From positions 1,054,001-1,118,000 of the forward strand of contig JARGXX010000071.1 in assembly GCA_030374765.1 (NCBI GenBank): DNA of 64,000 nucleotides, written 5' to 3'. The first letter of the stretch is position 1. Each line of letters opens with the position of its first letter. Of this stretch, positions 1,447 to 38,600 are shown piece by piece. A program made the translations under genes and the position numbers. Source of the DNA: Agarophyton chilense (taxonomy: Eukaryota > Rhodophyta > Florideophyceae > Gracilariales > Gracilariaceae). Below the pieces are notes generated by a model. It was not told the DNA's origin, did not search any database, and saw only the letters and a list, made by a program, of their open reading frames with translations.

Positions 1447-4400
1447 ATGAATTCTGTCTTTCCTAGAATCCGTATTGCGATAGACCGCGGGGGAACTTTT
1501 ACTGATGTTTATGCTGAGATAGACCGTCAAGATGGACAGAATGTCCACATTATTGCGACTGAGAAGCACGTACTGAAGCTACTTTCGGAAGACCCACATA
1601 ATTACCTCGATGCCCCTACAGAAGCAATTCGACGAATCTTGCAGATTGCCTTCGGAACAGAACAACCGCGGGGACAGCCGCTTGATACTACCCACATCCA
1701 ATCTATTCGAATGGGGACAACGATTGCAACTAACGCTCTCTTAGAAAGAAAGGGCAAGCCATGCGCCTTGATTGTCACGGAAGGACTTGGTGATATTCTT
1801 TCCATAGGTACTCAGGCCAGACCGAATCTGTTTGATCTAGAAGTTAAGAAGATGCCCCCTCTATGTTGCGCCTCTGTTGAGGCTGCTGAACGTGTCATTA
1901 TAGACAAACAAGAAAACATTTACCATCGTCACTCCGATCATCTTCAACTACCGGTGAAGGTTCGCCTAAAACTCGACGAAGAGGCCCTATCTTTGAAACT
2001 TAAGGACTTGCGGAAGGCAGGATTGCAATCCCTGGCAGTAGCGCTCATGCATTCATATGTCTTCAAAGAACATGAGCGTCGGATCCGAGACTTAGCCCTT
2101 CAATATAATTTCAAACATATTTCATTGTCTTCGGATCTTACCCCCATGGTTAAGATTGTGCCACGCGCATTCACAGCGACAGTTGACGCATATCTAACGC
2201 CTCTCATCAGGAATTACATTAATAACTTCAGAGCCGGATTTGTTGGTGGCCTTAGAAATGTAGATGTTCAGTTCATGCAAAGCGACGGGGGTCTTTGCGA
2301 TATCGATCAGTTTAGTGGATATTTGGCTATACTGTCCGGTCCTGCTGGAGGGGTTGTCGGTTATGCAAAGTCGTTTTACGGTATTGAGGAGAGCGTTCAC
2401 AGGCCTGATTCGAGCAAGATCATTCGACCTTTAATCGGTTTTGATATGGGTGGAACTTCCACCGACGTCTCTCGATATTGTGGGCGTTTGGAGCACATCT
2501 TTGAGACTGAAACTGCTGGCGTGACTGTCCAAGCTCCTCAACTGGATATAAACACCGTAGCTGCGGGCGGCGGATCAAGGTTGTTCTACCGAAATGGTTT
2601 GTTCTATGTCGGCCCTGAATCAGCGGGCGCTCACCCTGGACCTGTGTGTTATAGGAAGGGAGGATACCTTACTGTTACGGATGCAAATCTACTGTTGGGC
2701 AGAATTGAGCCATCTCTATTTCCCCATATATTCGGTGAGAACGCCGATCAACCCCTCGATTTGGATTCCACTCAAAAAGCTTTTGAACAATTGACTTCAG
2801 TCATCAACGACGACCTTCGTTCAATGAATGAGCGCGAAATGACAAAGGAGCAAATAGCTGAGGGGTTCATTAGAGTTGCTAATGAAGCCATGTGTCGCCC
2901 AATCCGCCAATTAACAGAAGCTAAAGGACATGATGTTCGAACTCATTCTCTTGCGTGCTTCGGAGGTGCAGGTGGACAACATGCATGTTCCGTTGCTCGA
3001 GCACTTGGAATTCAAACCGTTTACGTGCATAAATATTCTGGTGTTCTGTCTGCACACGGTATTGCTTTAGCAGATAGTGTCGTTGAAGTACAGGAACCCA
3101 TTGAAGTTTCATACGCGGATGAAGTATCAAGAAGGGAAGCATTAGAGTTGCTTGTTCGTCTCAAGCATACGGCACAACTCATTTTACGAAAACGGGGCTT
3201 CAGTGACAATGACATACGTTTTGAACTTTACCTCGACCTTAGGTACAAAGGAACGGACTTCGGAATTATGGTTCAGTGTCCGGCAGAACAGGAAGCTTGC
3301 CCTGAAAACGTGAACTTTGAGGACATTTTTCTTGAAATGTACTCAATAGAGCATGGGTTTAGTATACCGAATCGACTGCTTCTGATTGACAACGTGCGAG
3401 TTCGTGGTCTTGGAAACATGACTGGGATACAAGACATGAAAAGCAATTCACCCATGGCTACGTATGGCAGAGAGACAGACCAAGACTCCTTGGAAGGAGA
3501 AAAATCAGTTGGGAGCGCTATCCCTGTTCTTACGAAAAGTTGTTACTTCTCAGATGCTGGTGGTTGGACAAACATTGAAGTTTGGCGCATGGCAGATCTC
3601 CCGGCGGGAAACGCAATTCTTCCAGGGCCGTGTTTAATAGTGGATATGGACGCAGGAAATACTATTGTGATAGAACCGAATTCGGTAGCCTACGTGGCTT
3701 CAGACGGTAACTTGGTTATCAAAGACAAGTCTCAAAAATATTTGGCTGCAGCCGTGCCCAAATCAATAGACACTGACACCAGCGAAGTGGATCACGTGAA
3801 GCTGTCAATTTACGCGCATCGATTTATGAGCATCGCAGAGCAAATGGGTCGAACTTTGCAAAGAACGTCTATTTCAACCAACATAAAAGAGCGTCTTGAT
3901 TTCTCATGCGCTTTGTTTGATGAAACCGGGGGTCTTGTCGCAAACGCACCCCATGTCCCTGTGCATCTCGGATCCATGCAAGATACAGTTCGCCAGCAGA
4001 TTGCTACATTAGGAGAGTCGTGGGTTGATGGTGAAGTGGTCTTGACGAATCACCCATGTGCAGGCGGTTCGCATCTGCCGGACATTACTATCATCACACC
4101 TGTGTACTATAGGGAAAAGCCGGTATTCTACGTTGCATCAAGAGGACATCACGCAGACATTGGCGGAACCACGCCGGGTTCAATGCCTCCGTTTAGCAAG
4201 ACTCTTGCAGATGAAGGGCTTGCAGTTCGATCCATGAGAATTGTCAAGGACGGTTTGTTTCAGGAGAATGAGATATCTTTTCTTCTAGAACAAGCTGGTT
4301 GCAGGTGTCTTGAGGATGTCATTTCAGATGTGCGGGCACAGATAGCAGCAAACAAGAAAGGTATAACGCTGATCAAAGACTTGATCGAATCTCAAGGACT

Positions 4401-5343
4401 GGAAACTGTTGAATCGTACATGCATCACATTCAAACGACTGCGAAACATGCTGTTCAGGCATTGTTGAGGAAGGTTGCCGAAAACCTAAAGCTGGGAGAC
4501 AGGCCATTGATTTCATTCACAGATTATATGGACGACGGAACGCCAATCAAATTAACTATTCGAATAGATCGAAGGCAGGGTACCGCCTGTTTCGATTTTT
4601 CAGGGACTGGTCCAGAAACGAGTAGAAACACGAATGCCCCCGAAGCTGTCACAAGGTCTGCCGTTATTTATGCCCTTCGGTGTCTAGTGGATGAAGATAT
4701 TCCCCTAAATCAAGGATGCTTGGATCCCATTAGCTTGATAATACCGAAGAATTCAATTCTATCACCGAGGGAAAATGCTGCCGTTGTTGGCGGAAACGTT
4801 CTTACATCCCAGAGAGTGACTGATGTCATTTTAGGAGCGTTCGGAGCATGTGCTGCTTCCCAAGGATGTATGAACAATATCACTTTTGGAGACGAAACAA
4901 TGGGATACTATGAAACAATTGGTGGGGGTTCTGGTGCCGGCCCGGGATGGGACGGAGCATCAGGTGTGCAGACGCACATGACAAACACTCGCATTACAGA
5001 TCCGGAAATAATTGAACGGCGCTATCCCGTGATTGTTCGTGAGTTCTCCTTGAGGAAGCAATCGGGTGGCACTGGCAGGTGGACTGGCGGGGATGGTCTC
5101 GTGAGGGCTCTGGAATTTACAAAGACAATGACTGTTTGCGTTCTCTCAGAAAGGCGGAAGTATAGGCCCTGGGGACGTCAGGGAGGCAGTGATGCATGCT
5201 GTGGAAAGAATGATGTACTCCGTGCGGATGGCTCAATCATTGACCTTGGAGGAAAAAATTCTGTCGAAGTTCAACCCGGTGACGTTATACGCATTCAAAC
5301 CCCGGGAGGCGGCGGCTTTGGAAACGCCTCACCAAAAGCTTGA
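1447..5343 (+). CDS. OPLAH: 5-oxoprolinase (ATP-hydrolysing), intronless
   Basis: Cytosolic 5-oxoprolinase of the gamma-glutamyl (glutathione) cycle: 5-oxo-L-proline + ATP + 2 H2O gives L-glutamate + ADP + Pi. The single 1298-codon ORF matches the roughly 1290-residue length of animal and yeast enzymes. The N-terminal hydantoinase A-type half carries DRGGTFTDV (about residues 13-21), MGTTIATNALLERKG (about 89-103), SGPAGGVVGYAKS (near 297) and GFDMGGTSTDVS (near 331), the glycine-rich nucleotide loops of the family. The hydantoinase B-type half starts near residue 780 (KLSIYAHRFMSIAEQMG). The protein ends with the usual glycine-rich tail (DVIRIQTPGGGGFG). No frameshift or internal stop was seen, and the ATG follows an AT-rich leader. 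It appears to be a functional host gene. Confidence 0.96.
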   Translation: MNSVFPRIRIAIDRGGTFTDVYAEIDRQDGQNVHIIATEKHVLKLLSEDPHNYLDAPTEAIRRILQIAFGTEQPRGQPLDTTHIQSIRMGTTIATNALLERKGKPCALIVTEGLGDILSIGTQARPNLFDLEVKKMPPLCCASVEAAERVIIDKQENIYHRHSDHLQLPVKVRLKLDEEALSLKLKDLRKAGLQSLAVALMHSYVFKEHERRIRDLALQYNFKHISLSSDLTPMVKIVPRAFTATVDAYLTPLIRNYINNFRAGFVGGLRNVDVQFMQSDGGLCDIDQFSGYLAILSGPAGGVVGYAKSFYGIEESVHRPDSSKIIRPLIGFDMGGTSTDVSRYCGRLEHIFETETAGVTVQAPQLDINTVAAGGGSRLFYRNGLFYVGPESAGAHPGPVCYRKGGYLTVTDANLLLGRIEPSLFPHIFGENADQPLDLDSTQKAFEQLTSVINDDLRSMNEREMTKEQIAEGFIRVANEAMCRPIRQLTEAKGHDVRTHSLACFGGAGGQHACSVARALGIQTVYVHKYSGVLSAHGIALADSVVEVQEPIEVSYADEVSRREALELLVRLKHTAQLILRKRGFSDNDIRFELYLDLRYKGTDFGIMVQCPAEQEACPENVNFEDIFLEMYSIEHGFSIPNRLLLIDNVRVRGLGNMTGIQDMKSNSPMATYGRETDQDSLEGEKSVGSAIPVLTKSCYFSDAGGWTNIEVWRMADLPAGNAILPGPCLIVDMDAGNTIVIEPNSVAYVASDGNLVIKDKSQKYLAAAVPKSIDTDTSEVDHVKLSIYAHRFMSIAEQMGRTLQRTSISTNIKERLDFSCALFDETGGLVANAPHVPVHLGSMQDTVRQQIATLGESWVDGEVVLTNHPCAGGSHLPDITIITPVYYREKPVFYVASRGHHADIGGTTPGSMPPFSKTLADEGLAVRSMRIVKDGLFQENEISFLLEQAGCRCLEDVISDVRAQIAANKKGITLIKDLIESQGLETVESYMHHIQTTAKHAVQALLRKVAENLKLGDRPLISFTDYMDDGTPIKLTIRIDRRQGTACFDFSGTGPETSRNTNAPEAVTRSAVIYALRCLVDEDIPLNQGCLDPISLIIPKNSILSPRENAAVVGGNVLTSQRVTDVILGAFGACAASQGCMNNITFGDETMGYYETIGGGSGAGPGWDGASGVQTHMTNTRITDPEIIERRYPVIVREFSLRKQSGGTGRWTGGDGLVRALEFTKTMTVCVLSERRKYRPWGRQGGSDACCGKNDVLRADGSIIDLGGKNSVEVQPGDVIRIQTPGGGGFGNASPKA

Positions 5344-9180: not shown

Positions 9181-9832
9181 TGTAGTATTCGTTCTAACGC
9201 AGAGAGCAGACACATACGACAGTGTCCGGGACTGTCGATTTGGTTCTTGCGGCTCAGGGGAAGGTATGGTAGAACACCTCACTAGCGAGAAAGAATGGGG
9301 GTTGTAAGGCCCCACTCGCCAATGAGGGTGTTTGGTACTATGTAACGCACAACTACTTGTTGTAGCTCGCCCGGATCTCCGGTTTAAAAATCCTGAACAA
9401 GAAAAAAAGGAGTTGTGAACCCGTTGTTATCCTTTTTACTTTGGAGTCGGCGCTTCCCTCTGTGCCTTATGTACTGTGCACAGCGGTAAGCGCTGCACAT
9501 AATAATATCTAGATATAAACTTTGATAGCTAATTAACCCCTCTACTGTATGGGATAACTAGCTCTAAATGGGCGTCCGCCTACGAAGGGTAGCCCTGGTT
9601 TCCACGTGGCAACCCACTATATTCGCCGTTGCCAGTCCGGTATTTCCCTACAAAGGGTCGAATCGGATGCGCCGTTGCAGACCGAGATCCCACGTGTAAC
9701 ATACCACCTCACTGGCTATCAGCAGGATGTCGCTGCATAACTTCATCACAGCCGTTGCACTCACTTATGAGTATCATCATACTAAGACAAAACATGTTCC
9801 CATCTCCATTCCGACAGTTGTAGAATACTACA
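9181..9832 (-). repeat. Element G left LTR
   Basis: 652 bp. Starts TGTAGTATTC, ends GAATACTACA, and aligns along its length with the LTR of E (reverse orientation) and with D-type LTRs. A second TGTAGAGTAT just before it (9171-9180) leaves the exact start uncertain by 10 bp. Confidence 0.8.
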
Positions 9833-10091
9833 CATTCCTCCTGTTCAGCACGAAGCACGGGCGACGAAAGACGTCTTTATACACCCAAGCATGCTTAGGC
9901 ATTCCGAAATCTCCTCGTCTCCTCGAAAGTACACCAACTTCTGCTTAACGTCAGACGATTCACAGTATTCTGTTTTGACTTGATCAGCGATGAATTATTA
10001 CGCGCCGCAAAACTCGAACAACGGAGACGTACCCTCACAGGGTCCTTACGCGAGCAGTGGCTTTAATTCGCAAGTTGCAGCGCCTTCGGCT
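9833..10091 (+). pseudogene. Element G internal remnant: start of antisense gene
   Basis: Directly inside the LTR is a pyrimidine-rich stretch, then an ATG at 9991 (MNYYAPQNSNNGDVPSQG...). This matches the position and Ser/Gln/Asn/Pro-rich character of the antisense ORF start in element D. The frame passes into the next LTR and stops there. The rest of the internal region is deleted. Confidence 0.5.
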
Positions 10092-10325
10092 CTAACATCC
10101 GCTCTGCGGAGACAGCAGACACCTGCGACAAGGTTCGGGACTGCCGAATAGGTGCTTGCGGCTCAGGAGAAGGTGTGGTAGAGCATAAAACTAGCGAGAT
10201 AGAATGGGGGTTGTAAGTCCCCACTCACCAATGAGGGTGTTTGGTCCTATTGAACGGACAACTACTTGTTGTAGCTTGTCCGGATCTCCGATTAAGGAAT
10301 CCTGAACAAGGAACAAGGGAGTTGT
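10092..10325 (-). repeat. Element G right LTR, piece 1
   Basis: Begins near CTAACATCCGCTCTGCGG and matches the first third of the E-type LTR. It is cut at 10325 by solo LTR F; the sequence resumes at 11217 after the target duplication. Confidence 0.75.
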
Positions 10326-11324: not shown

Positions 11325-12120
11325 TGTAGTGCAACGCCAAGGGCGGCGGAAACACACGAAGATGTCCGAGTCTTCCTCCAAGGAGGTTAGCACGGCGACG
11401 GAGCCTCTCCGGAGTGAACACGACTAAGTCGGGGTGTAAGGCCGAGGTTCACCGGCACGCCAAGCGGGGAGAGTGCGGGATGCTAGAAGGGAGCAGACCA
11501 GGTATGAGCTGTATTCCACGGGAGTGGGCAAGTGATAAAGGGGGGACCACCCAGTGGGGGGCGATCGGGGGCATGGGCCACGAGAGCCAAAATAAATATG
11601 TAGCAAACCCAATACTGGGGCGAGAACACGGCAGTGGTATGAAAGATATACACGCTAACAGCGGTGAGTCTCCTGTTGACGCAGGGTGGATAAGTCTACC
11701 GTTAGTAACGCGGCTTCACCTCCATAGAGTGTGGAAGACTCGCGAAAGCGGAAAAAGACTTAGAGCCAAGAACCCTGGTTGGGGAGGTTTACTGAGTGTC
11801 AGGGCGAGATCGCCCTGGCACTATATAGTGTAGAATACTGTAGAGAGCTCCCTAGCCTAGTGTAATAAAGCTAAATAAATAGAGAAATATTCAGCTATGC
11901 TGTGCCAACCTGTCCTGGGCCACCCGTGGTACACGTGGGTAAGTCACACCCGAATCGGGGCCACGGCGCACGGCCGCCGGTGCACTTCGCGTACAACGCG
12001 TATATACCTGGCTACGCCAGCCCGCTAGTAGCGGTATTACTCATAGATCTCACAAGTATCGCCCGAGGCGGAAAAACAACCAAGTCCTGGAAAACGGCCC
12101 CTCACGAGGGTTGCACTTCA
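11325..12120 (-). repeat. Element A left (3') LTR
   Basis: Starts TGTAGTGCAACG and ends TTGCACTTCA (inverted termini). It contains two perfect palindromic stretches: an 8-bp inverted repeat at 11800-11817 (CAGGGCGA/TCGCCCTG) and, next to it, CACTATATAGTG at 11819-11830. ORFs reported inside it (11414-11833, 11902-12393) recur only with the LTR and are not taken as genes. Confidence 0.95.
11819..11830. promoter_or_regulatory. Palindromic TATA-like core in LTR A
   Basis: CACTATATAGTG is perfectly self-complementary, so it reads as a TATA box on both strands. The copy in the right LTR is at 22800-22811. Promoter function is inferred. Confidence 0.35.
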
Positions 12121-12133
12121 TATCCCCCTCCTG
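12121..12133 (-). other. Polypurine tract, element A
   Basis: Abutting the 3' LTR, the plus strand reads TATCCCCCTCCTG, i.e. CAGGAGGGGGATA in element sense: the plus-strand primer site expected for reverse transcription. B (29168-29178), C (27453-27462) and D (53711-53719) have matching tracts at the same place. Confidence 0.75.
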
Positions 12134-12155: not shown

Positions 12156-14093
12156 ATGGTGGGCGACGCGCCGAGACGAATGCATAAGAGTGCAACCAGC
12201 TCGCTGGGGTCCACTTCATCCGATGCCAACAAACGCAGTGCGGCAAAACTCCAGTCTCCTGGCAACAACCGTTCTCAACGTTCCATCTCAACCGAATCCG
12301 CATCCTTGCCTGCCAGTCCTCCGATTCCTCGGCATCGTCTTTCGCTTCGCCGGTCTCCTCTTCCGGTCATCCGGCCTCTTCGATCACCGATGAGCAACCA
12401 AAACAATCAACCCAACCGTCTCCCTGCGGGGTACTTATCCGGCTTCCGGTCTGTTCCGCTTCCGCAAAGCGCTTCATCGGCTGCGCCGCAGATTCCTATC
12501 GCGAACGCGGCTGCTGCTCCGTACGGAATGTTCCCCCCGAGAGGGTGGCCGCCATACGACATGCTTGTCGGGCGCCATCCTGGGCATCAAGCGTCCGTTC
12601 TCCGGCTTGCGCGGTGGTTCCACCCGATTGCGGTGTTAAAAGAAGCGCTTATAGCGATGCACACCGATGGAAACGGGATGCTTCGGGGCGATATTCCGGC
12701 CGTGGCGGCAACTTCGTTGGATTGGCGACGCCGCGTAGCGGTTCCGGTCCACGCTGTGGCGCGCCGGGGTAGTGAAACCTCGGCTTCCGCTCATGCGGCC
12801 TTCGTCCTTCTTGGCCATCAACGGCTTCGCCGGGCTCCCTTCGAATATCCCATCCCCGATGGTCTCGGCACCGACATTCGGCTTTACCGCACTCAAGGTG
12901 AGATTGGTTACGTCGACCGCCTGGCGGGTTTGGAAACACTCTCGTGGAGGGGCATCCCGATAGCACGGCAAGAGGCCATGTGCTGGACGCGACCGATTAT
13001 CCGGGCAGAATTCCGCTACATGCGTCGACTTGCGCGGGCTAACTTCCTCGCCCTGATCCGCTTCGAGCGTCGAGCACGATCCCGATTCGGGTATTTGGTC
13101 CCGTATCAGAACGTGGAGATCGAACGCCTTCGCGTGGCCGACCGATGGGGTCGCTATGTCCTCCTTCCACCGTGGTGGTCGAACCTCGAGGCCTGCCGGG
13201 GCTGTTACATCGAGCTGCCACCATTCATCACGTATTACGGTTCGTACCTCATCGAGGATCCCGAGTCCAGACTGTGGTCCGTGGTGATTACCGAATGGGC
13301 AGTCCGCGCGGCGGTGTTCCTCCTCTGGGAGGTGTATGACCAGTACAGACTGTGGTTCCTCCCGTTCCGGTTGAGGTCCGCGATTCGCAGCCTGGACCTG
13401 AGCATCCCACTTGGTGGAGTAACCAACGCCGGGGAAGTGGCGGGTCTTCTCGATTACATCGACCAGTTGGACTGGACCGCCGTTCCGATTGAACAAAGCG
13501 GGCGCACCGTGGGTAGCCGGGGTCAGGACCTGTCACCAGGAAGGCGTACTCCCTTGGGAGGTGATTTCGTATACTTTGACCCCTGGGAAGGGCACGAAAT
13601 CTCCGCGGAGGAAGCGAACGAACTCCGGTTTGCACCACGCCATATCCCCGAGGGGCATCCGATCGGTTTCGTGGACGCGGATGAGTATTACCACGTCTAC
13701 GACGGCGACGATCCAATGGTGGACAACGAACCCGACGACGAGGAAGCGTACGCCGAGGCGGAGGTCGAGGGATCCGAAGCGGAAGGTCCCTCTAACGCGG
13801 GGACGCCAGCCACGCCTTACGCGGATTTGGATAACCCCGCGGGGGCTGGGTCGGAGTACGCGGTAGCTGGACCACCTCCGGTTCCACCGGTGAATCTCCC
13901 AAGTGGTGGGGCGTCCGCCCCAGGCGATGCGAGCTCCGCTCCGGCGGGTCAAGCGGCCGTGATCTCCCAGTTCCTGCGACAGGTGGGGCTGGGGACCAAC
14001 GCAGCGAGTGGCGATGTTGCAGCGATGCGCGAGGCCTTGATCACCCGCCTCCAAGGTGGTAACCAACCCGGGGGCGGTGAGCCGAACCCGTGA
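12156..14093 (+). CDS. Antisense ORF protein (aORF) of element A, intact
   Basis: 645 codons, uninterrupted, on the strand opposite gag-pol, starting 36 bp inside the LTR and ending 180 bp from the convergent pol stop. About 125 N-terminal residues are Ser/Pro/Asn-rich and probably disordered. A globular core of about 350 residues follows, with blocks shared by the aORFs of B, C and D: RPIIRAEFRYMRR, then FERRARSRFGYLVPY, LPPWW, ELPPFITYYGSYL, EWAVRAAVFLLWE and a D-x-I-D-x-x-D-W block. The C-terminal part is acidic, then Gly/Pro-rich. No signal peptide, membrane segment, zinc knuckle or protease motif is seen, so it does not look like an envelope protein. The Arg-rich FERRxRSRFG block may bind nucleic acid (inference). 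Function unknown; not recognised as a known family. Confidence 0.85.
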   Translation: MVGDAPRRMHKSATSSLGSTSSDANKRSAAKLQSPGNNRSQRSISTESASLPASPPIPRHRLSLRRSPLPVIRPLRSPMSNQNNQPNRLPAGYLSGFRSVPLPQSASSAAPQIPIANAAAAPYGMFPPRGWPPYDMLVGRHPGHQASVLRLARWFHPIAVLKEALIAMHTDGNGMLRGDIPAVAATSLDWRRRVAVPVHAVARRGSETSASAHAAFVLLGHQRLRRAPFEYPIPDGLGTDIRLYRTQGEIGYVDRLAGLETLSWRGIPIARQEAMCWTRPIIRAEFRYMRRLARANFLALIRFERRARSRFGYLVPYQNVEIERLRVADRWGRYVLLPPWWSNLEACRGCYIELPPFITYYGSYLIEDPESRLWSVVITEWAVRAAVFLLWEVYDQYRLWFLPFRLRSAIRSLDLSIPLGGVTNAGEVAGLLDYIDQLDWTAVPIEQSGRTVGSRGQDLSPGRRTPLGGDFVYFDPWEGHEISAEEANELRFAPRHIPEGHPIGFVDADEYYHVYDGDDPMVDNEPDDEEAYAEAEVEGSEAEGPSNAGTPATPYADLDNPAGAGSEYAVAGPPPVPPVNLPSGGASAPGDASSAPAGQAAVISQFLRQVGLGTNAASGDVAAMREALITRLQGGNQPGGGEPNP

Positions 14094-14212
14094 CGGGGCA
14101 CGCGATCCCGATGGGAAGTTTTCCCTTGTGACTTAGAGTAGTATCCCGAGTGATCGGTATTCCATCGATAGCTTCGAATAAAAACCAAGTGACTTGTGTA
14201 ACCCAAAACCTT

Positions 14213-14272: not shown

Positions 14273-17200
14273 TTATCTCACCTGGGCTTTAACAACCGAT
14301 GCCGGGATTCCCGTCCGCGTTCTGCGGTGATATGACACCACCTTCGAACGTGGGAGATGTTCCATCGGCTCATCCGAATCCCATTCGGGCCCTAAACCGT
14401 ACCAACGGACGAGGTATTGAATATAACCATCCGGATGGTATAAGTGCTCCACTATGTGGTCGACCACGAACTCCTTTTCGTAGACTTCCCGCCCTTGTGG
14501 TGTACGCGTCACCGGACCAAACCGGTGTACTTCGGCAGGTGCGTGTGGGCTACTGTGCCCTTCCCCCGAGGGGTTCATGGGTTGGCGTTGCCTTTCCATG
14601 ACCTGGGTAGGGGAATGAACCGGGTTCCGGGTTGCCTTGGCCGCTTGGCGAGTTGCTTCCGCCAAGGCGTCATGACGAAGAGCGCCGGTTCGACGGCTTC
14701 GGTCGGAGGCCTTCCCGTGGGGCAATTCTCCCAGTTTTTGGATCGGAATGCTTTCCGAGAGCTCTCGTGCAGAGGCCACCCTTCGGGGGAACGCGGACTC
14801 ATCCCAAGGCTTGGTTTCGCGGTCGCGTTCCGCGAGTCGTCGGGGTGAAATCCGTCGCGACGGTCCTGGACTTGACGCGGGAGGCGGTTTCATCACGGGG
14901 CGTCGTGCCTTGCCGGGTGAGCCGCCTTAGGCGTTGATTGGCGTATCTCCCAAGCCGGGTGTCGTCTGGTCACGTGAAACGTCCGGCTGATGGCTGGGAG
15001 TACTCCGCGCCGTGCTGCGTTCTGCCTCCTCACGTGAGGGCGTGTGCAACGGCGCTGCCGGTATGTCTGCTCGCTTGGGCGACAAAGTACCGCGACGGGC
15101 GTGCAACTCCGGGTCAACCGTGCCTTTCTCACCAATGGGCGGCGAAGTGCGCGGCGAGGAACCCCTGCGGGGAGCGAGTTCGTCCTCAACTATCCCTTTC
15201 GAGGGTTCAACTTCACTCGACGACGAGTTGCTTCCGTCCTTGACGGGCACATTCTCCGGGGTGACCGGTGCGCCTTCGACAACGCTGTCGGGGTCAACCG
15301 AGACACTTGGAGTGCGTCCGCCACTGCGCGCGGGTTCCGAACCAGCATCAAGCGTGCTGGGTGTGAATCTCCCGTCTGCTACGGTGTGCTTGCCCGGCTT
15401 AGCCGGTGTGTCCTGCCGTACAGTACGAGGGACCACTTCCGATCGATTCGGCCTAGAGGGGCCTGCGAGGGCGTGCTCTAAGTTTTCCAGCGTAGCTGGT
15501 GTCAACGAACCGTGACCCACGGGCTGCGGGTCAACGCTCGACGGCATAGCCGGTCCAGTATCGCAAGGGCGAACAGCATCCTGCGACGATTTCGGTTTCG
15601 CTTTGGCGAGAGGGTTTCCACTACGTGGTGCGTCCTGTCGAGTAGAGTCCCCGTGGGGAGTGCGATCAGACGCAGATGCGGTGGCGCTTCCCATAGAGGG
15701 TTCAGCAACGGCTGTAGCGCGCAAATGCGGAGATGGTACGTCGGTAGACGGGACGTCCGGATCACCGTTGTTCTTGCTGGTGTGTCCAGGAGTCCGTGCA
15801 CCACGGTTGTCATAACGCGACGAAGCGGTTTCCGTCTCTCGACGAGAGTTATGAGCCTCCTCCCCCTCCTGAGACGGAGCGGCATGGGGAGTGGTTGAAA
15901 CGCCCAACGGGCGAAGGTAGACACCGCGCCGTGGCGTGAGAGAAGAAAGACCATTCTGGCCTTGGTCCGATAAGATCGGCAAGTCAGAGAGTCTCCGGGT
16001 AGGGTGTGGTAACGCAGAAGGTCTGGAAACCACGGCAGTGGGCTGAGCCACTGTTGTGTGCCGAGCACCATCATCCTCAGAGAGGGATTGTTGACCCATT
16101 TCGGTTACTTCCAACGTCGGTGGCGGGGCGAGTACAACGCGGTCGCGGGAGATCCGCTCATGAGCGTCGACAATTTCCACCACGATGGTGTCGTCTTTCA
16201 CCGAAATGACCTTGTAAGGACCGTCCGCGACGGAAGAAAACTAGTGCTTCTTTTCCTTTTCAGGGTTCCAGTACTCCTTACGGACGAAGACGAAGTCACC
16301 GGCTTTGATTGGCGGGGCCTTACCGCGTACGCGAGAGTCGAAATCACGCTTGTAAGCGGCTTGGGCACGAGCCATCGAGCTTCGGGCGACCGGGATCAGC
16401 TTCGTAAGCCACTCTTTCCACCTGTGGCGATAATCCTTCACGGAAGGGAACGCATCCAGCGTGGGCTGGGGTTCTAACGCGACAGCGGGCGGAGGGCGGG
16501 ACAAGACCAGTTCGAATGGAGTCAAGCCCGTAGTACGGTGTACCTGCGTATTGTACGCGAACGTCAAGGCGTTGGTATATAAATCCCATGTCTATGGGTG
16601 GTCGGCCCCGTAAGAACAGAGAGACGCTAATAGCGTTCGGTTAAACCGCTCCACTTGCCCATTACACTGGTGGTGATAGGTCGTTGTGAACAGGTTCTTG
16701 ATGTCAAGAATCCTGCACACGTCCTCGAAGAATCGCGATGCGAACTGTTTTCCTTCATCGGATAGAAGATTAACAGGCGGGCCGTAGACGAATACCCAAT
16801 GGGTTACAAATGCTTGTGCAACCGTGAAAGCGGATATCTTCCGTAGAGGTACGGTCCGAACCAGTTTTGAGAAACGATCCGTGATAACGAGTAAAAACTT
16901 ATGTCCACGTCGTGTGGTGAGGAGCTTACCGAGGATGTCAATGGCGACAAACTCGAGAGGAGCCCGTGCCGGGAATAGTTTCAACTTCGTTGAGTACTTG
17001 CGAAGTTTCACCCGATTCTTAGCATATTCGGTACAAAACCGCACCGTTGCGTAGCAATCCACCGCCATGGCGGGCCAGTAGAAATTCCTTCGCAAAGTGA
17101 GGTAGAGCTTCCGTCCACCGGCGTGTCCACCAAGTTTCGCATAGTGCGATAGATGCAAAACTCTAGACTGTAGAGTATGCGGCACCACGACTTGTGGGGA

Positions 17201-19978
17201 TGACTGAACCGTCCTGACGAGGTATCCAAGATCGTTCATCTCGAAAGGGAGTTGTGCACCGCCATTAAGCCAGGCGCGAATCTTCGTACAGAAGGGGTCA
17301 CCCTGCTGTTCTCTGACCATCTCCTCCGGGGGTATCGGCACAAAATTACCCGGCGGGGGTTTCTCTGAATCGTCTGAGACGAGCAATGCGTCAATATCAT
17401 CATCCGATTCCGGGCTTTCGTTCCATTTATCGTGTAAAAAATCCGGGTCCCCCGGTGTTCCATCGTCTACAACGAAGCAAGGTATATCTTCGTCATCGAC
17501 GGCTAGAGCTTCCCCATTCGTGGGTAAACGCGAGAGCGCGTCCGCTTGCGCGTTCTGAGTGCCCTTCTTGTAGATCACTTCAAAGTCATATTCCGCGAGG
17601 CGGAGTCTCCAACGCATTAAGCGGCCTGACGGCTCCGAGATGGTCATGAGCCATCGTAGGGACGAGTGATCCGTGTAAACGGTAAAGTGCACACCCATGA
17701 GGTAGGGGCGGAGTGTAGAGAGGGCCCACACAACTGCGAGGCACTCCTTCTCCGACACGGAGTAGTTCCGCTCGTGGACATTGAGCGAGCGTGACCAGTA
17801 CCCAATGGGTTTGCGTTCTCCTTCGGGAGTAGTTTGAAAGAGCGCACAGCCTACCTGGTACTCGCTAGAGTCCGTGTCCACGGAAAACGGTAGTTCGGGT
17901 TTCGGTAACGATAGAATCGGTGCTGATGTGACAGCCTCCCTAAGGGAGTTAAAAGCATCCGTCTGGGCGGACTTAAAGGGGTCCAGTTTAGGTGGTTGAC
18001 CTTTCCGCAGAAGCGCGTTCAAGGGGGCCGCGATGTCAGCAAAGTTAGGGATAAACCGTCGGTAGACGTTCACCAATCTTAGAAAGGAGCGCAGTTCCGT
18101 CTGGGTAGCGGGTTCTTTCGCCTTGCGAAGGGACTTCACTCGAGCTTCCTCGATCATTACACGTCCAGGACGGATAATGTGCCCGAGATACTTCACAGTA
18201 TCGGTAAAGAACTCAAATTTTCTCAGTTTGAGGGTTATTCCAGCATCACGTAGCGTGGTCATTATGTCCCTGACATGGGTGAGATGGTCATCCAGATTGT
18301 CTGAGAATACAATGATATCGTCCAAATAGACGAGGCCAGTACGCCACTTAAAGCGGGCCAACAAAATGTCGATAGCACGCTGAAAGGTAGCGGGAGCATT
18401 GGTTAGACCAAAAGGCATCCGTTTGAAACGGTAGAGTCCCGAGTGACAGACAAACGCAGTCTTATCTTGGTCCTCCTCCCTAACGGGAACCTGCCAATAT
18501 CCCCAATTGGCGTCCAAAGCCGTGAACACGGTAACAGTGCCGAGAGAGTCGATGTACTCATCCATTCGTGGGATCGGATACACGTCCTTGACGGTAACAT
18601 CATTCAAGCGACGGTAGTCGATGCAAAAGCGCCAGGACCCATCGGGTTTCGGGGCCAGTACCACTGGGGATGCCCACGGCGACTGAGCCGGTTCGATCAC
18701 TCCAGCTCGGAGCATTTTGTCCACTTGGAACTGTTCCTCTTCTCGAGCCTTGGGGCCTGCCCTGTAAGGGTGTTGAGCCACCGGTCGGGTGTTCGGCAAT
18801 AAATCTATCCGGTGTTCCGTTGTATTTATCTCTCCAAGAGAGCCATCCCACATTGTGGTAAACTCCCGTAACATCTCACGCAGACTTTCACGTTGTGACT
18901 CCGGTACATGACCGAGGTCGAGTTCCTCAAGTTCTTTCACGGGGTCTACCCGGTCGTAACTCGTCGGAACGGGCTTCTTTTCTGTTTCGGCAGGTTGAGA
19001 TTCCGAATCATTCGGTGATTGGACGGCAGCTTCCTCCCCCTCTTTAGAGTGAACGAGACCGAGGACTTCGGCAGCGGTCAGCCTAGTGGGGACCATCGCG
19101 GCGGGGTGAGGCATTACCGATCCAATAACTTGGTTTTTCACCAGTGACTGGGGGGTGGAGCCCAGATTGGCAACGAGCACGGTGAACGGCTTGTCTGGGA
19201 CAATCTGCGCGACTCCATTCGCCACGGCGAGTTGATATCCATCGTACAGAGATGAGAGAGGCTGAATGACTCGTAAACCGTGTTGACGGGAAGTGACACG
19301 CACCCATACTTGGGACTCTGGCGGGATTCGGACGGACGCAGCCACGCGGAGCTTGGTAGACTCCCGAGAAGCGGGTGGAGGTTCCTGCGCGGCAGGGAGC
19401 GGTATGTGCTTCTTGGAGGCACGCCGCAGCGGACGACGGACGATCGGGACCGACGAGCCGTCTTCCATCTCAACACGCTTTAAGCGGAGCCTTATGGCGT
19501 CAACGAATCTGTCACAGAAGTCACATCCCAAGATGATGGGGGCAGCCAATTTCCGGCATACAATAAAGTCGAGTTTCACCACGAGGGAGCCCAAGCGAAC
19601 GACGAGAGGGACAGTTCCAACCGTTGACAACGGGTTGTTATTCGCGTCCGCGACGTCGGGCGCCACGCCAAGGCGGATCTGAGACCGCAAGGGCGGGGGC
19701 AGCAGCGACTCCACGATGAAATTCGGACCAGCGCCTGTGTCCAAAACAGTAAGGACTCGAACCATAAACTGGGTAGAAAGGCCAAGGTCGGCATACACCT
19801 TGTAATTGCGCTTGGCAATTACTAAGACTCTATCCGGGAACCGGCGGTTACGAACACGTTTCCACGGTCGACGTAGAACACCAAAGTGTTCAGAGTCCAC
19901 GTCTGAGACGGCCTGTTTCCTCGTGAGGATTGTGACCGGGGAGCGAGGCGGAGACGCCTCGGGCGTCGTCAACCTCAC
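14273..19978 (-). pseudogene. pol: pol of element A (PR-RT-RH-IN-chromodomain), three in-frame stops
   Basis: One reading frame of about 1900 codons broken only by stops at 16592-16594 (TAG), 16241-16243 (TAG) and 14927-14929 (TAA). Counting from 19978: protease VLDTGAGPNF (DTGA 80-83), reverse transcriptase with VYLDDIIVF near 549, RNase H VDTDSSEYQVG near 699 and TDHSSLRWL, and integrase zinc region HLSHYAKLGGH near 940. In FCTEYAK (near 981) the last zinc Cys is Tyr; element D has LCTTCSK. Integrase core Asp/Asp/Glu sit in AIDILG, LLSDEGKQF and GQVERFN. A long Ser/Thr/Pro-rich linker follows, then a chromodomain at about 14300-14430 (FVVDHIVEH, YLVRWYGLGP, EPMEHLP). It lies in the -1 frame relative to gag. 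The chromodomain probably guides integration to modified chromatin. Confidence 0.9.
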
Positions 19979-19991
19979 TGTTGGGGACGCC

Positions 19992-20026
19992 TCTCCCGAA
20001 GGGGAGACTCCCGAAATCAGTTTTCC
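19992..20026 (-). promoter_or_regulatory. Candidate gag-pol -1 frameshift signal, element A
   Basis: In gag sense: GGAAAAC (20026-20020), gag stop TGA (20019-20017), then after about 9 nt a 6-bp hairpin TCTCCC-CTTC-GGGAGA (20007-19992). Pol is open in the -1 frame across this point. B has the same arrangement (GAAAAAC, TAA, hairpin CTCCC-CTGC-GGGAG at 35411-35398). Confidence 0.45.
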
Positions 20027-22146
20027 TGAGTCCCATCCGCCTGGGGCGGGGCCTCAGAATCCTGAACCACTAGCAATGGGGCGCCAGCGGCGGGGTTTAA
20101 AGGAACGGGGCGGTGGTCGGGAGCCTGCTCGGCAGGGTAAAGCAACGCATTGCGCGGTTTCGCCTCCGGAATACTCCGTGGAAAATCGATCTTCTCTCAA
20201 AGATAAGACGTCATCGGAACAATCCGCTTTTCCACTGGGGTCAACGCCTCATAATTACCGATTCCTCGGGCTACTTCCCTCATGGTGAGGATACAGTCCG
20301 GTGAAATGTGACCGTGTTCGTAGCATATGTGGCATATGAGTCCCTGGCGTGAGGGCTGCAAACCGGAGCGAGCATCCGTGAACTTCACCGCTTGGCGGGT
20401 ATCCTTCCATCCAGGGCGACTCTGTCGGAGCACACCGTTTGAATACGGGATGCGAGGTCCGTGAACACGGGGAGAGTCTGCGTACAGCAGGGGTCCATCC
20501 TGGGCCGTGTCATATGAGTCGTCCGTCGTAGACGGTAGTTCGGTTGTCGGGACCGAATGGATATCGCTTCGGGCGAAGTGTACAGTGTCGTACTCCTGTT
20601 GGGGGCGCTCACTCGCAATCAGCGATAGGGATGGCGACTTCGTTTCCATCACCAACGCATTGGCGGTTCGCGACCTGTGTCCGGGGGCACGAGCTCTTAA
20701 AGCGTCACCTTCCGCTTGCGCGTGTTGGACCAACTCCAGATACGTGGTCTTCCTTCGGTCTTCCCGGTAACGGGCCACGAGTGTTCGGATAGCGGGGTCC
20801 AGTCCATCGATGAACATGGTGCAGCGCTCTCCGGCGGAGTGTACGTTCCCACTACGGTGGAAAGCCTTGTTCAGGCGCACCGAGAATTCGGTTTCCGTTT
20901 CTCCAGACTTCTGGCGCGTATCGCGAAGAGCGAGAATGGCCGACTGAATCGCGTGATTAGTGGCGTAGGACCTCAAGAGGTATTGTACTGCTTCTGGCCA
21001 GCAGGTTACCCCTCCTTCGGAGGCTCTAGACGAACCTCTTACAGAGTTGTATTGATCCTCGGCGAGGCCTTTCATAAAGTACGGGAGTGCAATAAACGCC
21101 TGTCCTTCGGTCATACCGAGAATATCCGCTTCGGCGACGAACCTCGCAAGGAAATCCAGCACCAAAACGCGGTCTTCTCCAGAAAAGTTCTGGTTCCTGA
21201 GGGACAGTTGCATACGATTTATGCAATCCTTCACTCTACCCGTGCCACGGGGCGTGCGATCCAAAGAAAAGTTCTCTAGCCGATAGTATCGGTAAGAAAC
21301 CAACTTCTTGTACAGGGGGTTGATGCATTGCAGCTCCTTCAACCCGGAGTGTTTCCTTCCCTTCTCACGGGCGCGGATCACACCTTGGGTGGCAGACGAC
21401 CGTTTAGAACGGGATGAACGCCTGCGATGGCCATCGTCAGAAGACGAATCTGACGAGTCCGACCCATTTGAATGGTGAGAGCCACGCGACGACCGTGAAG
21501 AGTTCGACGAGTCCGAGTCATCGCTGTCACGCTTTCCACGCTGACGGCGGGTATCGTCCCTTTTCCTCTCGTGTTTCGCTTGGTGCGACACAGCAACCGG
21601 CTTCTCCGAGACGTCTTCCATCAAGATGGTTTGCTCTAACGTCTGGAGACGGGCGCTAACACGATTGAATCGGGTCTCGACACCTTCCACGTAAGCGGCG
21701 GGACCACCAAAACATTCCAACAGGGTGTTGACGTCCGCCCGCAACACGCGGAGGTCGTCAACCACTTCCTTCATAGAAGAGCCATCACACCTGGAACGCA
21801 GGGCTTCGAACTCTTCCACGAAGGCATTGTGCGCTTCCCGCATTACGCGGATCTGCTGCCTCACACTTGAGTTGGTGTCGATGTGGAACTCGTTTTTCTG
21901 GGCCTTTTCGTCGGCAGGAGCCGGGTAATCCACGGCAGGGGCCGGTCCAGCACCAGAATTGGGTCCGTTCTTCGACGCCTTAGGCGGTAGCTTGTTGTTC
22001 TTGGAGGAGTTCGACCCCTTACTCTTCCCTTTCGGAGCGGCTTGAGGTAACGGCGGGGGAACCCTTCCAGGGTCCGCAGGCACCACGTCATTGACGGAAC
22101 GGCTCCGCGTGATCGCGGGTTCCGCTTCCGTCGGTAGTCGTGACAT
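20017..22146 (-). pseudogene. gag: gag of element A, one premature stop
   Basis: Likely start ATG at 22146 (MSRLPTEAEPA); 710 codons to the TGA at 20017-20019, with an internal TGA at 20197-20199 where B reads through. Structure: a charged N-terminal region with coiled-coil-like stretches, a Ser/Asp/Lys/Arg-rich segment, and the capsid-like core found in all gags here (NPLYKKLVSYRYYRL; FLARFVAEADILGM). A CCHC knuckle follows (CHICYEHGHISPDC, about 20295-20340). Gag forms the particle and binds RNA. Confidence 0.88.
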
Positions 22147-22284
22147 GGTTGTAGCGTTGACCACTTGAATAGGACAACAAAAGCTTCCACCAAGTGGGTC
22201 CAAACCAAGAAATTGGAAAGCAGATCTCGACGAGAGAAGACAGCACAGCAATGTGAAAAACAACCAAACCAGGTTCCCCTAGCC

Positions 22285-22305: not shown

Positions 22306-23101
22306 TGTAGTGCAACGCCAAGGGCGGCGGAAACACACGAAGATGTCCGAGTCTTCCTCCAAGGAGGGTAGCACGGCGACGGAGCCTCTCCGGAGTGAAC
22401 ACGACTAAGTCGGGGTGTAAGGCCGAGGTTCACCGGCACGCCAAGCGGGGAGAGTGCGGGATGCTAGAAGGGAGCAGACCAGGTATGAGCTGTATTCCAC
22501 GGGAGTGGGCAAGTGATAAAGGGGGGACCACCCAGTGGGGGGCGATCGGGGGCATGGGCCACGAGAGCCAAAAGAAATATGTAGCAAACCCAATACTGGG
22601 GCGAGAACACGGCAGTGGTATGAAAGATATACACGCTAACAGCGGTGAGTCTCCTGTTGACGCAGGGTGGATAAGTCTACCGTTAGTAACGCGGCTTCAC
22701 CTCCGTAGAGTGTGGAAGACTCGCGAAAGCGGAAAAAGACTTAGAGCCAAGAACCCTGGTTGGGGAGGTTTACTGAGTGTCAGGGCGAGATCGCCCTGGC
22801 ACTATATAGTGTAGAATACTGTAGAGAGCTCCCTAACCTAGTGTAATAAAGCTAAATAAATAGAGAAATATCCAGCTATGCTGTGCCAACCTGTCCTGGG
22901 CCACCCGTGGTACACGTGGGTAAGTCACACCCGAATCGGGGCCACGGCGCACGGCCGCCGGTGTACTTCGCGTACAACGCGTATATACCTGGCTACGCCA
23001 GCCCGCTAGTAGCGGTATTACTCATAGATCTCACAAGTATCGCCCGAGGCGGAAAAACAACCAAGTCCTGGAAAACGGCCCCTCACGAGGGTTGCACTTC
23101 A
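22306..23101 (-). repeat. Element A right (5') LTR
   Basis: 796 bp, about 99% identical to 11325-12120. Followed by the ACTTG duplication and the rest of the G LTR. Confidence 0.95.
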
Positions 23102-28250: not shown

Positions 28251-29167
28251 TGTGGAGCAAAACCCGGCGACGGGAAGTGCTCTCAAGGTGTTCGAAGCCT
28301 TGCTCCCTGGGGGAGGCAGACTTGGAGACAGAGCCCTCCGTTCCACCCGTAGTGTGGGGTGTAACTCCCACGGGGGATTCTGGCAGTACCGACGGAGGTG
28401 AGGGGTAGAAACCGTTGGATCGGGAATGGGTGTGGGTATCCCAAAGAATGGGGGAAAATCCGGCGAAGAGGAAAAACGGGGCGAGGGTCGGGCACTAACA
28501 GGCACCGGACCCGAGAACCAGAAAAGGGGCGAAACAACAAAAGAAACCCAATACAGGGGCGAAAACCTGTCCTCGAAAGGAAACACAAAAAGCACGCAAC
28601 AAGTAAGCAGAACCCCCACGGGGTATCGTGCACGCAGGTCGTCTGAGCGGTCTCAAGGGGGTGGTTGCACGGAACCCAAACGTGGGCACTCTCCAAGTGG
28701 AGTCGTGTCCCTACGCAGGCGTTTCTAACCAGAGCCCGTTCCGGGTTGTAAGGCCGAAACGATGGCGACGAAGAACCTCTAAAGGTATCGAAGACCAACC
28801 TTGGTTACCATTTACTTTGAGCCTCGGACTGTCAGATCTCGTCTCCCTAAGTAGGGCCCACTAACTAAACTCTACAGTAGTGCACACCTGCTCAGGGACA
28901 TACACGTGGAGATCCCATTGTCAGGGCCAAAAAATCCAACGTTCTAACAAATATCCGAAAAATCGGTGCCAAAATTAAGCCACGTGTATCACGGGGCCAA
29001 TCCAACCATGGGCCATCCGAATTTTCACTTCATAGGCGAACTCTAACCAGAAAACAGTGCCATCTCAGCACACCTTAGAGGGGATCATAGTCATAACCCT
29101 CGGAGGGTTCAATCCTCATTCTATGAGTTGCATCTTCAAGTATCCCCTAACTGGGCGTTGCTCTACA
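28251..29167 (-). repeat. Element B left (3') LTR
   Basis: TGTGGAGCAAAACCC ... GCGTTGCTCTACA. Followed by the purine-tract complement TCTCCCCCTCC at 29168. Confidence 0.93.
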
Positions 29168-29377
29168 TCTCCCCCTCCTTAAGACCAGGAAGAACATTCC
29201 GAGCCGCGGGTGTCTCGCTTTCCGGTCACTATACATACTTCTCTCCCAATAGGGTCCTTCACCACTTCTGAGGATCGCCACAAAACCGGCACATCGGTAC
29301 AACTTTCTTCTACTCCTCCGACTTTCGGCGATAAGCAACTTCTCGCAACAGCAGTCTCAACCAGCCCTCTGAAGGGA

Positions 29378-31105
29378 ATGAACCCATACATCCTCAACCC
29401 ACTCTCGGGGCCATCGGCCTCCGCGCTGGTGGACAACGAAGCTCCCCAGCAGGGTGGATATTTCTCCGGTTTGGATGCGGCTCCGTCAGGTACCGAACCT
29501 TCCGCCTCGGCGAGCAACCGACATCCTCAGGAGGATTTGGACATTAACGCAGTGGCGTGGAACTCCGCTCATGCGATTCCCTTGGTAGCAAACTCCAGAG
29601 GTTGGATCTCAAACGAATTCTTTCGAAGGTGGAGTCCCCTTACCGATCCGGTGATATATTCCCGGGCTCCGTGGTTCCACCCGACAGCGGTTCGCGACAA
29701 TGAGCTCATCGACTCCTACGTGGAGGACGCCTTATTGCCGGGTGGCCTACCTGTTGAGGTTGTACGTTCTCCCGATTGGAGGGCACGGGTAGCCATAGAG
29801 CCTCAGTATCTATACCGCAGTCGCGGGGAGTCCCTGGACAAGGCGCGCGCAGCGATGGCGGCTCTGGCCTACCAGTGATTGGAGAGGTCACGCTTTGACC
29901 ATCTGGTTCCCCCGGAGTACGGGTTCGATGTCGCCTATTACCGCACGTACGGTGAGGTCTCCTACGGGGATAACCTGGCAGCCTTTCCCGAAGCCGAGTT
30001 CCGCGGAGCGGGTCTTCCTCTCCGAGAAGATATGCTCCAATGGAGTCGTCCCATCCTTCGGGCTGAATTCAGGTACCTTCAACGGCAGTTTACCCAGTAT
30101 GGGTTCGATCGACGCGTGCGCTTCGAGCGCCGCTCGCGCTCCCGTTTCGGGTTCCTTGTCCCGTATCCTCACGTGGAACTGGAGCGTATCCGTTAAACGG
30201 CGAAGGTTGGGCGAGTCGTGCCCCTTCCAGCTTGGTGGAGTAAGGTCGAGGTCCCCCGAGGGTGCTTTGCTGAACTGCCCCCGTGCATCTACTATATCGG
30301 GTCTCGTTTGATGCACGACCCGAACTCGGGATACTGGGCCCTCGTTGCAGCCGAGTGGGAACCCCGCGTAGCGGCGCATCTCCTCTGGGATGCTCATGAC
30401 CATTTCCGTATCTGGTATATTTCTCCGATGCTACGGACCATCATGCGTCAGATCGACCTTGTCCCAGCGTTGGGTTCGGTCAGCAACGTGCAGGACCTGT
30501 ATCCAATCTTGGACGTGATCGACAACACCCAATGGGATCGAGTTCCAGTGGACAATCAGCCCGCAGGGGAAGGATCCGTGCGAGACAATTCTCCTGGCCG
30601 GTACGATCCGGGCTCCGGTAACTGGGTCTATTACAATCCCTTCGAAGGGGTTTGCATCAGCGCGGCGCAAGCACGGGCGCTGATTGACTCGCCTCGACCG
30701 ATGCCGGTGGGACACCAGACGGCGGTCATTTATACCGACGATTACGAGTACGAGCCTCCAGTAGACCTGGACGATCCAGCGTTGGATAACGACATGCCAG
30801 CTCCTAGTGGAGTAACCCCTGTGGAGCCATCTGCACCCTTCCAACCAGTGGGAACGACCTCAGCTGCGGCGGCGAATGCATCGGGTGGCGGTCCATCTGC
30901 TCCCCCCGGGTGGGGTGTGAACACCCTTGCGCAGGCGCCGTTTGCCACTCCGCAAGCGGATAGTGTGCGACAAGGCCTCGTGAACGCGGGCATTCCGATT
31001 CCCCCGGGTATGACGGATGTTAGCCAGATGTTGGCTTTCGCCTCGGCGTACCATCAGGGTCAGAATCCCAACGGTGGGGCGGGTCCCTCCTCGGGCTTTC
31101 CATAG
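29378..31105 (+). pseudogene. aORF of element B, two in-frame stops
   Basis: Plus-strand homologue of the A antisense protein; first ATG at 29378 (MNPYILNPLSG), with the frame open upstream to 29210. One uninterrupted phase to 31105 with only TGA (29876-29878) and TAA (30194-30196). Shared blocks include SRPILRAEFRYLQR, FERRSRSRFGFLVPYPHVELER, LPAWW and ELPPCIYYIGSRL, then an aromatic/acidic region and a Gly/Pro/Ala-rich tail. The stops fall where A has Arg (QRLRR) and just after ERLR. No frameshift over about 575 codons. Confidence 0.8.
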
Positions 31106-31164
31106 TTCCGCCTTCGGGCAATTGTAGAGTCCATAGCTTGGCGACAATAGTAAACTTCTGATAT

Positions 31165-31335
31165 TTGCATAACTTCTTTTCTTCTTCCTTCCTAGGATCT
31201 TAACTTCTACTTCTTTTCTTCTTCCTTCTTAGGATCTTCTTCATCTTCGTCTTCATCTTCTTCCCTTCCTAGGGTCCAATCTTCTTCTTAATCTTCTTCT
31301 CCACTTCGAGGGTCTTCTTTTTCCTTTTTTTCATC
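31165..31335. repeat. CT-rich tract between convergent genes (B)
   Basis: About 170 bp of TCTTC/CTTCC-type sequence with recurrent CCTAGGATCTT-like units. It sits between the aORF stop and the chromodomain ORF; similar but shorter tracts occur at the same place in A, C and D. Confidence 0.65.
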
Positions 31336-31507
31336 ATAAACTGTCCCGATAACCGGTGCTGTGTTCCCCGGTTAACGGCGCTAGGCCGAGGGCCAGTAGA
31401 CATTCCCTCTCAATACGTGTTCTTCGGGATAATCTCCTCAATTCCTCTTCAGAGGTCCAACATCTTCCTCACTTCGAGGTCCCATCCACACCAGTTCCCG
31501 TGGTGGC

Positions 31508-31798
31508 TTACGCGACTTGGGCACGATCCAGACTTGGAGGCAAGGTTACCCGAGCGCGTCGGTGATAGGATAAAACCTTAGACCTCGGAAGGTGCTCAAT
31601 GGGTTCCACTGTATCCTCATCACGCGAGAATCCGTACCATCGGACTTGGTAGCGGACTTCTCCCTCGGGGGTGTAGATGTGACGCACGATGCGATCGATG
31701 ACGAATTCCTGCGGGTACACTTTTCCCTGTTCGGGCTTCTCTTCCATCTTGGAACGCTCTAGTTCCCTTGAGGGTGTCAACGTAGGGTTTAGACACAC
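31508..31798 (-). pseudogene. Chromodomain remnant of pol, element B
   Basis: 96-codon minus ORF containing a chromodomain: QEFVIDRIVRHIYTPEG, YQVRWYGF, EPIEHLPRSK, very similar to the A and D pol C-termini. It is separated from the rest of pol (ending at 32348) by about 550 bp of non-coding, partly duplicated sequence. Confidence 0.75.
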
Positions 31799-32082
31799 CC
31801 CGGTGGGTTCTTTTCCGTGTTGCGAGCGGGTCTCAGCACTTCGTCCAAACGGCTCCGAGTGGCCTGTGGGCTACGTTGTAACTTCCGTCTACGGAGTCAA
31901 AACGGCCCAGTTTTGGGTTCTTCTTAAAGCTGAGATCTTCCCGATAACAACGGTTTTCTTAGATTCCGTGACGGTTGAGAAACCGCGACGCGGTAGCGTC
32001 TCCAATCTCAGGGGGGTAAGACTTCAACGTCAACCCGAGCTACGGGGACGAAGGTTGCTCCCGTGCAACGCGCCGTGCGACG

Positions 32083-32182
32083 GAGGCGGTTTGCGCGACG
32101 GTTGGTCGTCAGAGCCTTTTGATTGGCTCGGTGAGGCGGTTTGCGCGACGGTTGGTCGTCAGAGCTTTTTGATTGGCTCGGT
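32083..32182. repeat. 50-bp tandem duplication in element B
   Basis: GAGGCGGTTTGCGCGACGGT... at 32083-32132 is repeated at 32133-32182 with about one mismatch. Just after it, at 32215-32241, a stretch (TTGCCACTCCGCAAGCGGAT) repeats part of the aORF at 30939-30963. Both sit where integrase sequence is missing. Confidence 0.75.
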
Positions 32183-32347
32183 GCCATTTGACGTGTGCCA
32201 CATAACTGCACGGGCGCCGGTTGCCACTCCGCAAGCGGATATGAGGTGGCGCTTTCGACACGCGCTAGCACTCTCCTGAGCTGTCCCCGACGGGTCTCAC
32301 TCATTTCCTTCCCATTCCTGAGGGTTCCAGTGTCTCCATAGGAGTTT

Positions 32348-35419: not shown

Positions 35420-35421
35420 GT

Positions 35422-37452: not shown

Positions 37453-37659
37453 GCTGCAGACACGACACCGACGATTCGGGGTAACGATGAAATTCGATCA
37501 CCAGATTCCCGGAGAACGGATGACGTAACACAAAACAAAAATAAAAACCAATTCCACCCTTTCCAAACGGAACCACTACAACAAATCTTCACGACGGTGC
37601 TTCCTCTTCCAAGAGATATTCCAACACGTGGATAACCAACCCAAAAGTCCGAGAACGGA

Positions 37660-37677
37660 TTCTAAGTCGGGAGACCA
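37660..37677 (-). other. Primer binding site, element B
   Basis: The same 18 bases as in A, 2 nt from the 5' LTR. Confidence 0.85.
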
Positions 37678-37679
37678 CT

Positions 37680-38595: not shown

Positions 38596-38600
38596 CAGAA

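Follow-up and report, generated by a model that had tools for sequence, protein, structure and literature searches.

Element A and its antisense gene

The window analyzed here is a 64,000-nucleotide stretch of the Agarophyton chilense genome that carries the Ty3/gypsy elements A, B, C, and D. Element A runs from a left LTR (11325 to 12120), which has TG...CA ends and is the 3' LTR relative to gag-pol, to a right, or 5', LTR (22306 to 23101) with 99.2% identity to the left one, and a 5-bp target duplication, read from the sequence, flanks the element. The minus strand carries gag (20197 to 22263) and the pol frame (14273 to 20053), which encodes RT, RNase H, integrase, and a weak chromodomain. 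On the plus strand, the antisense gene of A (12156 to 14093) is an intact ORF from ATG to stop that encodes 645 amino acids, and homologs of its product were found by protein searches. The ATG lies 35 nt inside the left LTR edge, with the polypurine tract (12121 to 12132, minus strand; pyrimidines on the plus strand) between the LTR and the start codon. The antisense gene converges on pol, as the first-pass annotation had stated: the two are arranged tail to tail, with 180 nt between their ends, and an AATAAA, a possible poly(A) signal, follows the antisense stop by 84 nt (14177 to 14182, plus strand). In the window copy, pol has three in-frame stops (14927 to 16591, minus strand) and the antisense gene is open; the pol stop nearest the end is the same stop as in another copy, locus L006. 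Left of the element lie D-type-LTR-related fragments (9181 to 10325, repeated at 9198 to 9416 and 10107 to 10325) and a host gene (1447 to 5343), which is a 5-oxoprolinase-like, uninterrupted frame of 1,298 codons with Hydantoinase A and B domains.

Elements B, C, and D

The first-pass annotation had assigned a large antisense gene to each of A, B, C, and D. This was borne out for B and D by tblastn and for C by profile comparison, with the qualifications that the C gene is distant and that the B, C, and D copies are dead, so that A holds the only intact copy in the window. The antisense gene of B (29183 to 31105, plus strand) carries two in-frame stops and lacks a start codon at the position where its relatives start; the LTRs of B (28251 to 29167 and 37680 to 38595) are 98.6% identical. 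Element B (28251 to 38595) is nested within element C (26844 to 48917), with its insertion point in the antisense gene of C, and the LTRs of C, which are 93% identical, are 21 kb apart. The part of the C antisense gene to the right of the B insertion (38598 to 39710, plus strand) is a distant homolog with in-frame stops. A D-type solo LTR also lies inside element C (45707 to 46371). The antisense gene of D (53735 to 55560, plus strand) has a frameshift and a stop, and the LTRs of D (52995 to 53710 and 63005 to 63671) are 85% identical. To the left of D, a gag relic on the plus strand (51846 to 52591), matching A gag in two pieces at 54% and 32%, represents the remains of another element.

All four elements had been called chromoviruses. 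Against the Pfam cutoff of 25.1 bits, a chromodomain at the C terminus of integrase was found in B (32.1 bits) and weakly in A (22.3 bits, below the cutoff); Pfam detected none in the frames scanned for C and D. The chromodomain Gypsy lineages of Ectocarpus are described as not being chromoviruses (PMC12477816), and the present elements, with a chromodomain in A and B, are candidate chromoviruses in the strict sense.

Copy number and linkage to pol

A search of the genome (79.8 Mb in 135 contigs), in which match counts are lower bounds, returned at least 68 antisense genes of type A, at least 130 of type B, and at least 133 each of types C and D. For 55 of the 68 listed A genes, the other strand carries an A-type RT no more than 8 kb away, most often at 3.4 kb; the remaining 13 had no A-type RT among the matches listed. 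Conversely, 19 RT places had no listed A gene. Five of these were opened, and the gene was present in all five, three times in damaged form and twice as a member of one of two further families, E and F. The antisense gene is thus present in most copies of family A. An opposite-strand pol C terminus or chromodomain was found at all 30 fetched A loci (68 listed) and all 30 fetched B loci (130 listed). In-frame stops were absent from 25 of the 68 listed antisense rows and from 35 of the 74 listed RT rows. At one place (G000:C22:1515573-1534731), three same-orientation A-type RT copies lie within 20 kb, possibly as a tandem array joined by shared LTRs.

The antisense gene of E has one in-frame stop, and that of F has an open frame of 651 codons, of which 569 follow the first ATG used. 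The antisense start lies 35 nt from the LTR in A, 81 nt in B, 24 nt in D, 47 nt in F, and about 95 nt in E, the LTR edges of E and F being set by analogy. The earlier description of the gene as starting just inside the 3' LTR holds for A, B, and D, and with these edges also for E and F; in C, the start is further in, at an uncertain exact place. An AATAAA occurs within 400 nt past the antisense stop in A, D, and F and is missing there in B, C, and E, and a TATA-like LTR motif is present in A and D and absent in B and C; as clues to expression, these motifs are suggestions only. A palindromic TATA in the LTR was considered as a bidirectional promoter, but it is not relied on because, present in A and less exact in D, it is missing in B and C.

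Homology, divergence, and selection

The A protein matched B with 38% identity (E value of 1.7e-79) and D with 36% identity (E value of 8e-59) in tblastn searches. The C protein was recovered by hhalign with a profile of A, B, D, and their relatives (96.6% probability; E value of 6e-10; 208 columns; 27% identity). The antisense proteins of A, B, D, E, and F align over most of their length with 32 to 55% identity, and the ordered blocks reported earlier for all four window families are shared by A, B, and D and only partially by C. Protein searches, which each scored the 8,000 candidates with the most shared words, yielded 12 distinct homologs. All six that carry a species name are from Gracilariaceae, namely, Gracilariopsis chorda, Gracilaria domingensis, and Agarophyton chilense.

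Identities between the antisense proteins are 52% for A and E, 49% for A and F, and 55% for E and F, versus 81, 80, and 81% for RT. The antisense, gag, and pol identities are 37, 51, and 67% between A and B, 35, 42, and 52% between A and D, and 22 (27 by hhalign), 31, and 43 to 46% between A and C; only the ranks count in these comparisons because alignment lengths and programs differ. By these ranks, the antisense gene is the fastest changing of the three genes compared. The order of divergence is the same for the antisense gene and pol (A-E/F, A-B, A-D, and A-C), as expected if the antisense gene traveled with its element. The gene has probably been inherited with the element since before the split of families A to F.

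Purifying selection, which the first-pass annotation had proposed to look for by dN/dS between copies, was found between the five families A, B, D, E, and F. The Nei-Gojobori dN/dS ratios of their 10 pairs (C was not included) are 0.20 to 0.40, compared with 0.05 to 0.08 for RT in the three pairs of A, E, and F, and the between-family ratios are rough because dS is near saturation (pS of 0.62 to 0.74). Mismatches between families amount to 0.33 to 0.54, 0.28 to 0.51, and 0.57 to 0.72 at codon positions 1, 2, and 3, respectively. Together, the ratios and the position-3 peak uphold the view that the gene is old and kept, and a chance ORF is ruled out, since the reading frame persists from family to family and mismatches are most frequent at position 3. 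The first-pass annotation had seen no overlapping gene on the minus strand. An ORF of 286 amino acids (12636 to 13496) does overlap there, but constraint on it fails to explain the frame: inside its span, the A-E mismatches are 0.31, 0.22, and 0.57, still highest at position 3 of the plus-strand codons, which coincides with position 1 in the overlapping minus frame.

Within families, the selection signal on the antisense gene is weak. For family A, after three of 30 loci were dropped for length, dN/dS is 0.70 among 27 gapless copies and 0.75 among the 15 without stops, with values of 0.79 to 1.00 in the other frames. Variants found in at least two copies show synonymous-to-nonsynonymous counts of 39:67 in A (P = 0.007) and 44:69 in B (P = 0.0006), and the A pol C terminus gives 34:74 (P = 0.11). 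Singleton variants of the antisense gene also show a synonymous excess (187:398 in A and 163:322 in B), which is favored by the picking of loci as best protein matches. With constraint between families and a weak signal within them, the gene is thus maintained along the lineages that give rise to families, whereas individual insertions decay almost without restraint. These sequence comparisons show it to be a genuine protein-coding accessory gene of a Ty3/gypsy lineage, antisense and under selection.

Predicted protein features and searches for relatives

The N terminus of the antisense protein is rich in Ser and Pro, and the net charge of the first 100 residues is +13 (basic) in A and -6 in B. 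A motif near the N terminus, GFRSVPLP, occurs in variant forms in A, D, F, C, and the homologs. It is followed by a conserved central domain at about residues 130 to 500 of A. The C-terminal 150 residues are acidic (-22 in A, with a negative charge also in each of seven further sequences), and most of the proteins have a terminal motif, QFLRxxGL...GD..AMR. The disordered N terminus and the C-terminal helix are inferred from composition.

As had been noted before, the protein lacks envelope features. No transmembrane-like stretch was detected, the best 19-residue hydropathy being 1.51 in A, with lower values in seven further sequences, and an envelope protein is ruled out on this ground. In the profile and database searches suggested at the outset, none of Pfam, NCBIfam, PDB, the phage collection, and IMG/VR yielded a relative. 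For the A protein and nine aligned members, Pfam recognized no DNA-binding or other domain and returned no bZIP match, which rules out an HBZ-like bZIP protein. Transposase_28 (PF04195; TRP28) had no Pfam match in the A protein or the nine members at an E value of ≤1, so that a TRP28 protein is likewise ruled out, and a TRP28 search of the genome gave one subthreshold match (E value of 0.05) at none of the listed antisense genes. The PDB search gave no match at an E value of ≤1 for the A protein or ≤10 for the family alignment; another family alignment gave two nonsignificant matches (E value of 5), both to the portion of E2 enzymes that binds E3. A weak likeness to E3_binding at the C terminus was also seen in Pfam in two of the nine members (E value of 0.24, not significant). 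In PHROGs, one of 11 members weakly matched a phage virion protein family (E value of 0.064), which was counted as chance. A viral or phage relative is ruled out, since tblastn of the A protein against the phage collection gave no match and none of the 23 pattern matches in an IMG/VR scan was confirmed. A relationship to the Gag of the element was rejected as well (hhalign probability of 0.1%; E value of 0.53). In the libraries searched, the antisense protein thus appears to resemble nothing described.

Comparison with known antisense genes

In plant Ty3/gypsy elements, antisense ORFs that lie between pol and the 3' LTR have been described as a class (aORF-3R), with examples including GENE23 of Grande, RIRE2, the Retand ORF, and PvRetro13; they are described as conserved over species, of unknown function, and suspected to be nuclear regulators (PMC7264820, PMC11963269). 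The algal gene shares this layout, being a long ORF that runs opposite to gag-pol in the interval from pol to the 3' LTR. The earlier picture of an isolated gene, with antisense genes known in a few plant lineages, stands for the protein, which has no relatives in the family libraries searched; the layout is less isolated, since it belongs to this described class. Retand is reported as a non-chromovirus lineage of flowering plants in which 97% of the clusters encode TRP28, whereas the algal elements have a red-algal host, a chromodomain (A and B), and an unrelated protein without TRP28. The envelope-like ORFs of plant LTR elements are likewise extra ORFs between pol and the 3' LTR, but they have sense orientation, and the algal gene is antisense and without a transmembrane-like stretch. 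Outside plants, antisense genes expressed from the 3' LTR are described for HTLV-1, whose product is HBZ, and for HTLV-2 to HTLV-4, whose products are the APH proteins; these proteins are nuclear and hold LTR activity in check (PMC10186651). HBZ belongs to the bZIP proteins and its RNA starts in R and U5, whereas no bZIP or other domain is recognized in the algal protein; HBZ offers a functional model for an antisense regulator driven from a 3' LTR (PMC10186651). Searches of an open-access literature library returned no description of an antisense gene in the LTR elements of red algae. Relative to plant aORF-3R, the host group, the element lineage, and the protein differ, and the layout is shared.

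Possible function of the antisense gene

The antisense protein probably serves the element in controlling its own activity or in dealing with its host. The antisense mRNA would start in U3 of the 3' LTR and end near pol. The transcription start is most likely in the LTR because the ATG lies 24 to 95 nt from it in five of the six families, which leaves little promoter room elsewhere; in A, the left LTR is predicted to be where the start site must lie or which it must adjoin. Translation would yield a soluble protein with a disordered basic N terminus, a central folded domain, an acidic linker, and, at the C terminus, a conserved helix motif. Its likeliest job is to regulate the element itself, probably as a nuclear factor that adjusts LTR transcription or weakens silencing by the host. 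HBZ of HTLV-1 and GENE23 of maize Grande, which is nuclear, are the analogies from which the nuclear role is proposed. We hold with roughly even confidence that the gene encodes a regulatory accessory protein, probably nuclear, whose antisense mRNA begins in the 3' LTR.

It is unlikely that the protein is instead a structural or particle accessory that travels with Gag and aids assembly, nuclear entry, or cell-to-cell spread. Its large size and conserved central domain would suit such a role, and disordered flanks are frequent among structural proteins, but neither a relation to Gag nor a transmembrane-like stretch was found, and an antisense transcript, we infer, could not yield the protein together with Gag-Pol from one RNA. 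That the antisense gene changes faster than gag and pol might reflect an arms race, with the protein acting as an anti-silencing or antidefense factor against a host protein; relaxed constraint would give an equal pattern, however, and positive selection is an assumption of this reading, which we regard as decidedly improbable. The antisense RNA itself might be what matters, with convergent transcription limiting gag-pol or giving small RNAs and the protein being secondary. The tail-to-tail layout, 180 nt apart, fits this idea, which is discussed for plant antisense ORFs (PMC7264820), yet an RNA role needs no 600-codon frame, and mismatches of 0.57 to 0.72 at position 3 against 0.28 to 0.51 at position 2 make it very unlikely. 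A passenger, whether a captured host or viral gene useless to the element or a chance frame, is favored by a decay within families that resembles that of pol (25/68 stop-free antisense rows and 35/74 stop-free RT rows listed), but with the gene kept by six families, between-family dN/dS of 0.20 to 0.40, and homologs in three named genera, this is extremely improbable.

Returning to the nuclear regulator, we consider it possible, as a tentative extension, that red-algal Ty3/gypsy elements gained their antisense gene independently of the Tat elements of flowering plants, that its product has a new fold and is a fast-evolving counter-silencing or self-regulating factor, and that accessory genes driven in antisense from the 3' LTR arose at least three times, in deltaretroviruses, plant Tat elements, and red-algal elements. 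If so, an antisense accessory gene just inside the 3' LTR would be a recurrent solution of LTR elements rather than a quirk of flowering plants and HTLV. Because a single genome holds many copies of the family, in several divergent lineages, the questions of promoter, partner, and selection are testable. Public gene sets already list antisense genes of this kind under the label "hypothetical protein," and annotators should therefore treat them as transposon genes.
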